Assembly: GCA_028281785.1 (NCBI GenBank) | Contig: JANQJG010000067.1 | Span: 1 to 64,000, forward strand | Direction: 5' to 3' | DNA from: Rhodospirillales bacterium | GTDB taxonomy: Bacteria; Pseudomonadota; Alphaproteobacteria; Rhodospirillales; Shumkoniaceae | Length of the DNA stretch: 64,000 nucleotides | Shown here: positions 55,926 through 59,525 of the stretch, in pieces | Layout of the letters: every line of letters starts with the position of its first letter | How positions within the stretch are numbered: the first letter of the stretch is position 1 | Program-made: the position numbers and the translations under genes | Notes under the pieces: generated by a model | The model's input: the letters and a program-made list of their open reading frames with translations, nothing else | Databases searched by the model: none | Told to the model about the DNA's origin: nothing

Positions 55926-56166
55926 CACCTGCCCCCACCAAGGCCGTATACCGTTAGGAGCCGGCGCCGAACCGCGTGCAGAACCAGCCTTGGTCATCCC
56001 GTTAACCGGGAGATAATGAAATCCGGGCTAATCTTCAGGGTCGCGCGGCGGCGAGGACCTGCGGTTGACCGTTGCCGGCGCGATCGTTTGCGATCCATAA
56101 CTGTCTCCGCCGATGCGCCGCCGTGGTCCGGACCGAACATCGGCAAAGGGGACGAAGGATCCCGTC

Positions 56167-58209
56167 ATGGACGTTCTGACCTTTGTTTCGCAGCACGGAT
56201 CGGCAGGGAAGACAACGCTGTCCTACCTGGTGGCGACGGCCGCGGAGGCGGCGGGCAATGGGCCCGTTGCCGTCGTAGAAACGAACTTGACGGGCTCGGT
56301 CGACGGATGGCGCGACGTATCCTTGCAGTCGACCCTCAACCTCGACCCGATCGCCCCATCCGATTTCGCCACGGCGCTCTCGGAGCTGCGGAATCGGAGC
56401 TGTGCCCTCGCGATTATCGATACCGCCTCGGGCCCCTTGGGCGATATCGAACCGCTCATCTCCACATCGGACATTTTGGCGATCCCCGTGGTTCCCGAGA
56501 AGGAGCTGCTTCAAAGCCTCGGCGAGACGATCAAGCCGGTCAGGCGCTCCGGAAAGCCGTTCATGTTCATCGTCAACCGGGTTGACGCGGATGCCTCCAA
56601 ATCGCCCCTGGCGACCGCGCTCGCCATGCAGGGCACGGTCTGTCCGGTTTTCGTGCCGCGGGATCCGGTCCTGCTCGGAAGTCCGGGCAGCGGCGACAGC
56701 TCCGCCGACGAAATCGGGGACGCGGCGTTTTCCGACGCCGTTGCCGGCCTCTGGATCTACGTCTCGGAGCGTATCGCCAAGGCCAAGCGGCCGCCCGCGC
56801 CAACCGTCGATCACGGTCCTCTTCCCCGTCAACGCCGCGAAACCCCGCGATGGCGGCTGAAGCGCGACGTTCAGTTGATCTCCGATGGCCAACGGATGGC
56901 CGGCCGCTTGTGCGATATCTCGGGCGGCGGAGCGGCGGTGCAAACCGATGCCAACCTATCGGTTGGCGATCCCGTCCAGATCGATATCCCATCGCTCGGG
57001 CTCTATGATGCGTCCGTCGTACACGGCGGCGGGGGGCTTTTTGGACTCGCCTTCGCTCTGACGGCGGAGGAGCAGCAAAGCCTCGCCGAGCGCCTGGAAC
57101 AGACGGTTTCTTGGACGACCACGCCGGCACCCGTTCCGCCACCGAGTCAACCCGTCGCGGAAGAGGCGGTGTCCGATCCCGAACCGCCCGAGGAGGCGGA
57201 GCCCCTCGCCCCCACGGTCGTGGAAGCGGCCGACACCAAAACCCCCATCGCCATGCCGGCCGAGGAACCTCCGGTACCGGCGCGCTCCGTTCTGGTCGAT
57301 GTCGAAACCGTCGCGTCTTCCGACGACCGCTCGCAGGCCATCGTCCCGCAAACAGGGCCCGGCGCCTTACAACTCGACGAAGGCGTGCGCAGGATGATCG
57401 TCGTCGGCAGTCTCAAGGGCGGATGCGGCAAGTCAACGGTCGCGATTCACCTTGTTGTTGCCCTGGCAAGGGCGGGCTGCAGGGTCGCGAGCGCCGATCT
57501 GGACACGCATCAGGCCACCTTGACCCGGTTTTTGGAGAACCGAAGGACCTTCGCTTCGACGCATGGCCTGGACCTGCCGGTATCGACTCACCACATCCCG
57601 CCGCCTGGCGAAGCCGACGACGCGTTGGAGCAGGCCCTCACCGCCTTGAACCCGCGGCCCGACGTGATCGTTGTCGACACCCCCGGCAACCTCACCCCTC
57701 TTTCGCAGGTCGTCCACGGCGCGGCCGACATCCTGATCACGCCCGTCAACGACAGCTTCCTCGACCTCGACGTGCTCGCGGACATCGAACCCAATACTCT
57801 CAGATTTCGGGGTTTGGCCCCCTACAGCGATTTCGTCTGGCGGGCGAAGTCGGCGCTCGCTGGGTCCAGGGACGTGCCGTTTGACTGGATCGTCTTGCGA
57901 AACCGCCTCTCCAATCTTGACGCGCGGAACAAGCGCGACATGTCGAGCGCCCTCGACGACCTTGCCGACCGTCTCGGCTTTCGCACCGCGGACGGGCTGA
58001 GCGAACGCGTGATCTACCGCGAGCTCTTCCTCCACGGCCTGACCCTGCTCGATCTCGGCGACAAGGAGACCGGCGTGCCGCTCAGCCTATCCCATGTCGC
58101 GGCAAGGCAGGAACTCCGCACGCTTCTCACCAGCCTTTTTCCGGCGAAGGCCGCCACGGAGGCTTTCGACGCGCATCCACGGCGGCGGGCGATTTCACCG
58201 GTGATTTGA
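56167..58209 (+). CDS. ParA-like / PilZ / MipZ-like triple-domain fusion
   Basis: 680 aa from ATG 56167, seven bases after AAGGA. Residues 1-205 are ParA-like with a changed deviant Walker A, SQHGSAGKTT (signature Lys replaced by His10), and switch II IIDTASGP. Residues about 215-315 are a PilZ domain with both c-di-GMP motifs intact: R224-ETP-R228 and D250-ISGGG. An acidic Pro-rich linker follows. Residues about 409-680 are MipZ-like with intact Walker A (K417-GGCGKST), ADLDTHQATLTRFLENR, VVDTPGN and SERVIYRELFLHGLTLLDL. MipZ positions division in alphaproteobacteria. The architecture suggests a c-di-GMP-responsive ATPase; I do not recall it as described. Confidence 0.88.
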   Translation: MDVLTFVSQHGSAGKTTLSYLVATAAEAAGNGPVAVVETNLTGSVDGWRDVSLQSTLNLDPIAPSDFATALSELRNRSCALAIIDTASGPLGDIEPLISTSDILAIPVVPEKELLQSLGETIKPVRRSGKPFMFIVNRVDADASKSPLATALAMQGTVCPVFVPRDPVLLGSPGSGDSSADEIGDAAFSDAVAGLWIYVSERIAKAKRPPAPTVDHGPLPRQRRETPRWRLKRDVQLISDGQRMAGRLCDISGGGAAVQTDANLSVGDPVQIDIPSLGLYDASVVHGGGGLFGLAFALTAEEQQSLAERLEQTVSWTTTPAPVPPPSQPVAEEAVSDPEPPEEAEPLAPTVVEAADTKTPIAMPAEEPPVPARSVLVDVETVASSDDRSQAIVPQTGPGALQLDEGVRRMIVVGSLKGGCGKSTVAIHLVVALARAGCRVASADLDTHQATLTRFLENRRTFASTHGLDLPVSTHHIPPPGEADDALEQALTALNPRPDVIVVDTPGNLTPLSQVVHGAADILITPVNDSFLDLDVLADIEPNTLRFRGLAPYSDFVWRAKSALAGSRDVPFDWIVLRNRLSNLDARNKRDMSSALDDLADRLGFRTADGLSERVIYRELFLHGLTLLDLGDKETGVPLSLSHVAARQELRTLLTSLFPAKAATEAFDAHPRRRAISPVI

Positions 58210-58831: not shown

Positions 58832-59212
58832 TCAGCCGAGCATCGCCTCCACCTCGCGGCGCAGTTCGTCGAGCTCGGCCTGAATGGCATTGATCCTTTC
58901 CAGCGGTGACGTCTGCGCATCGGCGGATCTCGCGGCTTTCACCGGCTTCGGAAACACCTCGGTTTCGGCATTCATGAACCGCAGTCCGACCTTTGTGTTG
59001 GCCTGCCAGACGACCTCCGCCGCGCGTTTCTCACCGCCTTGGATGTCCAAGTGAAAGGTAGGGGGACAAGTGAAGCCTTCGGGAACATCGAGGCCGGCTC
59101 CATACTCCGACAGATTCCTGACCAGGCAGTCCACCACGGAATGGCCGTTGTTGTAGATGATCCGGCCTTTCTTGAGGACCTTGCTCCGACGACTGGTGCG
59201 GTTTTCCGTCAT
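58832..59212 (-). CDS. PilZ domain protein with C-terminal coiled coil
   Basis: 126 aa from ATG 59212; a TTG at 59251 would add 13 residues. The PilZ motifs are R-TS-R-R near residues 5-9 and NLSEYG about 25 residues later, so c-di-GMP binding is plausible. The domain ends with KVGLRFMN. A short helix (LERINAIQAELDELRREVEA) follows and is a likely coiled coil. It is upstream of the LdtR-like gene on the same strand. Single PilZ proteins often inform motility or envelope processes. Confidence 0.85.
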   Translation of the reverse strand: MTENRTSRRSKVLKKGRIIYNNGHSVVDCLVRNLSEYGAGLDVPEGFTCPPTFHLDIQGGEKRAAEVVWQANTKVGLRFMNAETEVFPKPVKAARSADAQTSPLERINAIQAELDELRREVEAMLG

Positions 59213-59525
59213 CCGAAAACACTCTTTTTGGTGTCTCGTGAAACCGGTCAAAAAAATGCTCTCGTCGGCCGCGTCTCCGGCCGGCCCTCCGATGGGTTCG
59301 ACGCCGACCTTGCCCCGCGACCAAAGGGGGCACCGTCACCCTAGCCCATCTTCTTTAAAAAAGGATTAGGGGCGCGTATGGCTTCAATGACAGCTACCCC
59401 GCGCTCCTTGCCGAACTACTCCAGCCATGTTCCGGCCATATTGCGCCCATCTTTTCGCCCCGGCCGCCGCGGCATAGTCGCTCCAAGGCCGCCGACGCGG
59501 CGAAAACTGGGGGGAACCAGCGAAG

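Follow-up and report, generated by a model that had tools for sequence, protein, structure and literature searches.

MipZ is known for the placement of FtsZ, and other ATPases of the ParA/MinD family place cargo such as the chemoreceptor cluster, the flagellum or polysaccharide machinery. Motility and polysaccharides are, in turn, the classical outputs of c-di-GMP. In Caulobacter crescentus MipZ, the substitutions K13A, G14V and K18Q lock the protein as a monomer and give rise to minicells, and D42A locks it as a dimer and blocks division (PMC3355305); the nine DNA-contact residues of the same protein have also been given (PMC7229837). When Caulobacter lacks c-di-GMP its septa form close to one end of the cell, and how this comes about is unknown (PMC3764195). 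That c-di-GMP can act on a complex with a MinD/ParA-type ATPase has a precedent in FleQ-FleN (PMC10723142).

The gene described here lies in a stretch of 64,000 nucleotides (the window) from a Rhodospirillales bacterium, and encodes one protein in which a degenerate ParA domain, a PilZ domain and a MipZ domain follow each other. This arrangement had been proposed by the first-pass annotation of the window, and both the reading frame and the profile matches bear it out. The frame of 680 residues is uninterrupted, without internal stops, and its ATG at 56167 corresponds to the start point of the ParA homologues. The GC content at third codon positions (GC3) is 0.82 in the ParA, 0.73 in the PilZ and 0.82 in the MipZ domain; with a value of 0.74, like that of the domains, the connecting linker is evidently coding as well. 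The contig, 84.3 kb long, extends beyond the gene on both sides and belongs to a draft genome (5.24 Mb, 254 contigs, 97.5% complete). The residue numbers assigned earlier are correct, i.e., H10 in SQHGSAGKTT, R224xxxR228, D250xSxxG255, TLTRFLENR at 451-459 and SERVIYRELF at 612-621.

Table 1. Coordinates of the fusion gene, its domains and motifs, and of related or neighbouring genes (positions in the window unless a locus is named)
Feature	Coordinates	Strand	Basis or remark
Whole fusion gene	56167..58209	+	Single open frame, 680 aa plus stop
Likely ribosome-binding site GAAGGA	56154..56159	+	7 nt before ATG; sequence
Pseudo-ParA domain, residues 1-210	56167..56796	+	K10H, G12S, D38E, D40N, P41L; K15, T16, D85 kept
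PilZ domain, residues 222-305	56830..57081	+	PF07238, E 1.1e-11, 45 bits, far above cut-off
PilZ motif 1, R224-E-T-P-R228 (RxxxR)	56836..56850	+	Sequence, alignment
PilZ motif 2, D250-I-S-G-G-G255 (DxSxxG)	56914..56931	+	Sequence, alignment
Acidic Pro-rich linker, residues 312-405	57100..57381	+	Predicted disordered; GC3 0.74
MipZ domain, residues 410-657	57394..58137	+	PF09140, 303 bits; residue mapping
Second, stand-alone PilZ protein	58832-59251	-	0.6 kb downstream, convergent with the fusion
G066 ParA-PilZ protein	L078:2194-3168 (G066:C9)		Preceded by TerB-like gene
G015 ParA, degenerate PilZ and REC-like protein, 443 aa	L066:2784-4115 (G015:C126)		
Separate MipZ-like clade, G025 member	L070:5648-7039 (G025:C64)		
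Separate MipZ-like clade, G028 member	L074:6003-6830 (G028)		
Separate MipZ-like clade, G038 member	L075:6846-7682 (G038)		
MipZ with diacylglycerol-kinase catalytic domain	L169:3137-5494 (G303:C308)		785 aa
Tandem pair of MipZ genes	L073:5398-7071 (G031:C3)		

The C-terminal unit is a MipZ domain. It matches PF09140 over profile positions 2-258 of 262 with 303 bits, against a cut-off of 20.7 (E 1.6e-90), and its sequence matches the Caulobacter MipZ structures 2xj4, 2xit and 2xj9 at E about 1e-60. Residues K417, G418, K422, D444, D446 and D504, the equivalents of K13, G14, K18, D40, D42 and D110 in Caulobacter MipZ, are intact, so that the deviant Walker A lysines and the catalytic aspartate (K13, G14, K18, D42) are all encountered in the fusion. 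The ATPase-cycle residues are invariant across the fusion and 70 homologues, and the dimer-interface residues are intact. The MipZ blocks noted earlier at the C-terminus are thus genuine, with every tested ATPase-cycle residue kept, and the unit should bind ATP, dimerise in an ATP-dependent manner and hydrolyse its nucleotide, since each tested residue needed for this is present. At the DNA-contact positions R194, R221, L237 and L248 are identical, R196K and K197R are conservative replacements, and R198D, R219S and R242T are changed. Positions 198, 219 and 242 vary widely among MipZ homologues generally, and the changes therefore neither support nor weaken DNA binding. A reading of R198D as loss of DNA binding was dropped, as this position is occupied by Glu in 16, Arg in 14 and Asp in 14 of the 70 MipZ homologues.

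The PilZ unit likewise matches its profile far above cut-off and carries both c-di-GMP motifs, in agreement with the earlier description. In the model of residues 1-311 it forms a six-stranded barrel followed by a C-terminal helix, and Foldseek retrieves the PilZ domain of BcsA (4i86) and the VCA0042-c-di-GMP complex (3kyg) as structural matches. In the full-length run, the alignment of which contained no PilZ rows, its pLDDT is about 71-88. The closest relatives, with about 40% identity, are stand-alone PilZ proteins from two genomes of the same order, belonging to family f18. With its complete motif pair the unit should bind c-di-GMP. It is joined to the MipZ unit by the 94-residue linker, and the pLDDT drops to about 34-43 over residues 311-400. 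Such a long, predictedly disordered tether would allow the PilZ/ParA part and the MipZ part to move relative to each other.

The N-terminal unit has a ParA fold with a strongly altered nucleotide site. The Pfam evidence stays just below threshold (CbiA, 24.2 against 25.4 bits), and the assignment to ParA is clear from 59 homologues with about 25-34% identity and from the predicted fold. The AF2 model of residues 1-311 has a pLDDT of 83, and the best fold match of residues 1-207 is TP228 ParF (4dzz), with a DALI-scale Z of 24.5 and an rmsd of 2.0 over 192 residues. Replacement of the signature lysine, as reported from the first inspection of the sequence, is confirmed by H10. The loss extends beyond that description to both switch/Walker-A' aspartates and one P-loop glycine: H10, S12, E38 and N40 take the place of Lys, Gly, Asp and Asp found in 59/59 homologues. 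Moreover, the TPP that usually follows the Walker B aspartate is TAS in the fusion, and R166 (present in 56/59) is an Asp. The P-loop lysine K15, T16 and the Walker B residue D85 are retained. Judged from these residues, the ParA half is a pseudo-ATPase at several positions and not an active ParA. Nucleotide binding may persist at its site, whereas hydrolysis and formation of an ATP sandwich are not expected; the loss of the signature lysine in particular argues against canonical ATP-sandwich dimerisation of this half, for which the first inspection had suggested a role in dimerisation or anchoring. A ParB- or CopG-type partner gene was not found beside the fusion, the flanks of which contain ankyrin and MarR/PilZ/LpxR genes.

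In changes per column, the end branch of the ParA half has a length of 10 (median 0.37), whereas that of the MipZ half has one of 0.91 (median 0.51). Together with the residues lost and retained, this contrast points to a very different constraint on the two halves, such as a catalytic (MipZ) and a regulatory (ParA) half would show. Seen within a single protein, it is the strongest internal indication of a changed role for the ParA half and an unchanged one for the MipZ half. The ParA-PilZ half and the full-length protein (the latter with MipZ rows only) were modelled apart, because in joint ParA and MipZ alignments the rows of ParA were displaced onto the MipZ unit. The full-length model carries no information on domain packing, and its ParA part, with a pLDDT of 25-43, does not represent a modelled structure.

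A normal, stand-alone MipZ is encoded elsewhere in the same genome (G000:C140, 274 aa, PF09140 E 2.5e-97), which makes the fusion an extra MipZ. The two share 46-47% identity. The closest sequences to the MipZ unit come from genomes of family f18, at 55-60% identity, where they are the sole MipZ copies. A recent duplication of the genome's own MipZ is rejected by this comparison of 46-47% with 55-60% to another family's protein, an argument that rests on identity and not on the tree. With support 99, the genome's own MipZ is placed in the clade of its family. For the fusion the quick trees are unstable: when it is forced into that clade, the likelihood exceeds that of the unconstrained search (p-AU 0.949). 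The MipZ unit is accordingly an old paralogue or was obtained from another source, two origins that the trees do not separate. The MipZ homologues also include a separate clade from elsewhere in the order (Table 1), the genomes of which carry another MipZ as well; the G025 copy is surrounded by genes for MCP, CheB and CheA, and the G028 copy adjoins a gene for an Hpt protein, which suggests that MipZ has here been recruited to chemotaxis. Two further observations concern MipZ genes of other genomes, i.e., a protein in which MipZ (residues 68-326) is followed by a diacylglycerol-kinase catalytic domain (512-627), and a tandem pair of MipZ genes within one genome.

The fusion gene appears to stand alone. 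An ankyrin-repeat gene lies upstream on the same strand, and downstream there are convergent MarR-type and PilZ genes, followed by lpxR. In the neighbouring PilZ protein the RxxxR motif is not clear. The genome contains 11 GGDEF loci and five PilZ regions, and ParA-like and ParB genes adjoin each other on contig C163; with the GGDEF loci and the ParA/ParB genes, both the ligand and partners for MipZ exist in this organism.

The whole protein was searched against 317 genomes of the order and a sample of 385 from the class, among them the four other genomes of its family, and no other protein with the full architecture was found. Scanning the genome contigs with the full protein gave no relative, and among plasmid records there is no place that covers 80% of the protein. 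Many other MipZ frames have N-terminal extensions, but these seem to be the upstream gene read out of frame, and not fusions. When the contigs were scanned with the ParA-PilZ alignment, orphan ParA proteins of Sphingomonadales dominated the matches. These uncharacterised proteins are widespread in that order (L195-L267) and have conserved neighbours, including TPR/SEL1 and small acidic genes; among the neighbours (TPR/SEL1 proteins and, by eye, pyrBC-like genes) no link to c-di-GMP or division was found.

ParA-PilZ proteins without MipZ are present in two Rhodospirillales-type MAGs, Dive96_bin1.131 (G066) and Rhodospirillales 8_1_Oct_SF_Bin68 (G015), and the joining of ParA to PilZ thus recurs in this part of the alphaproteobacteria. 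Like the fusion, both have ParA followed by PilZ, with 30% (G066, 324 aa) and 27% (G015, 443 aa) identity over residues 1-310. Unlike the fusion, the G066 protein has an intact ParA P-loop, and the G015 protein has lost the RxxxR motif of PilZ and continues into a REC-like domain. No MipZ match was found in the 95% complete G066 genome. A single clade of the three ParA units is compatible with the tree data but not demonstrated by them (p-AU 0.329); the branches are long. Among the genomes examined, MipZ would seem to have been added to ParA-PilZ once.

The reading put forward here, tentatively and at somewhat under an even chance, is that the gene product serves as a second MipZ-type ATPase beside the housekeeping MipZ, one that responds to c-di-GMP and of which we infer both the gating and the target. 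The N-terminal pseudo-ParA/PilZ half would act as a regulatory cap. Binding of c-di-GMP at the PilZ motifs would change the contact of this half with the MipZ unit or its partner, and would thereby determine how much MipZ can enter the ATP dimer, which binds the nucleoid and antagonises FtsZ. In this way the placement of the division site, or of another structure positioned by MipZ, could be adjusted to the c-di-GMP level with no transcription step in between. FtsZ and division placement would be the most likely output, because MipZ is known for this function and c-di-GMP-free Caulobacter misplaces its septa. A specific form of the proposal, in which c-di-GMP binding directly sets MipZ dimerisation and hence the position of the Z-ring, with the dead ParA unit as an in-built regulatory partner, is doubtful. 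Against a gated MipZ stands the occurrence of the architecture in one genome only, hence there is no conservation to show selection, and possibly also the partial conservation of the DNA-contact positions, though this is normal among MipZ homologues. Against a role in division, no operon partner hints at it. The earlier suggestion that division or polar placement is gated directly by c-di-GMP is compatible with all findings and has independent motivation (PMC3764195), but the status of the fusion as an extra MipZ copy and the chemotaxis-linked MipZ paralogues leave room for other cargo.

Such other cargo is the main rival explanation, though a doubtful one: the protein would be gated by c-di-GMP, yet its MipZ unit would place a chemoreceptor cluster, a flagellum or polysaccharide machinery in place of FtsZ. 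The retention of a housekeeping MipZ and the classical control of motility and polysaccharides by c-di-GMP fit this explanation, as does the separate MipZ clade (support 99), with one member by MCP, CheB and CheA and one by an Hpt protein, from which it follows that MipZ paralogues do get other jobs. The fusion MipZ, however, falls outside that clade, its closest sequences are the only MipZ of their genomes, and no gene for such cargo lies beside it. It is unlikely that the fusion works through the housekeeping MipZ, by forming mixed dimers in which c-di-GMP sets the strength of the interference; one genome encodes both proteins and the dimer interface of the MipZ unit is intact, but an identity of just 46-47% between the two speaks against this. 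More improbable is a chance gene fusion that is heading for decay, without a selected link to c-di-GMP, for although the architecture is confined to a single genome and the ParA half is degenerate and fast-evolving, the 680 codons are free of stops, a ribosome-binding site is present, the PilZ and MipZ motifs are intact and GC3 is coding-like throughout. An assembly chimera or missed frameshift uniting two or three genes, conceivable in a draft genome of 254 contigs, is highly improbable, as there is no sign of such an artefact in one frame that spans three domains and a 94-residue coding linker inside an 84-kb contig, and two other MAGs independently show a fusion of ParA with PilZ.

If the protein is indeed a c-di-GMP-gated MipZ that acts on division, it would be the first case in alphaproteobacteria in which c-di-GMP is tied directly, at the molecular level, to the placement of the division site. 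In the manner of a Rosetta stone, the natural joining of a c-di-GMP receptor with MipZ hints at direct communication between the two, and it offers a single protein with which such a link can be tested in vitro. It also presents a ParA-fold unit that has kept its shape and lost catalytic residues beside an intact ParA/MinD-family ATPase, and which may serve regulation. The fusion is thus a testable candidate for direct c-di-GMP control over the placement of the division site or of another structure. Every unit is of a known kind and the combination is new here, as found in one draft genome; a full-text literature search for both terms, with subscription papers outside its coverage, retrieved no MipZ-PilZ fusion.

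Compared with Caulobacter crescentus MipZ (PF09140; 2xj4, 2xit, 2xj9), the C-terminal 250 residues of the fusion share 118/262 MipZ positions and keep the tested residues of the ATPase cycle. The Caulobacter protein is stand-alone, whereas the MipZ of the fusion is the last third of 680 residues and the second MipZ in its genome. Residues 1-210 share the fold of TP228 ParF/ParA (Z 24.5) and about 25-34% identity with alphaproteobacterial orphan ParA-like proteins, but unlike in these proteins the signature lysine, both Walker-A' aspartates and the P-loop glycine are replaced. The PilZ proteins YcgR, BcsA and VCA0042 have the same barrel with RxxxR and DxSxxG motifs; to our knowledge none of them is fused with MipZ or ParA. 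The closest functional parallels to the proposed role are the FleQ-FleN system of Pseudomonas (PMC10723142) and BcsE/BcsQ (PMC7439463), in both of which c-di-GMP sensing is reported to be coupled to a MinD/ParA-type ATPase. These systems differ from the fusion in that sensor and ATPase are separate proteins, with other sensor folds and other outputs.
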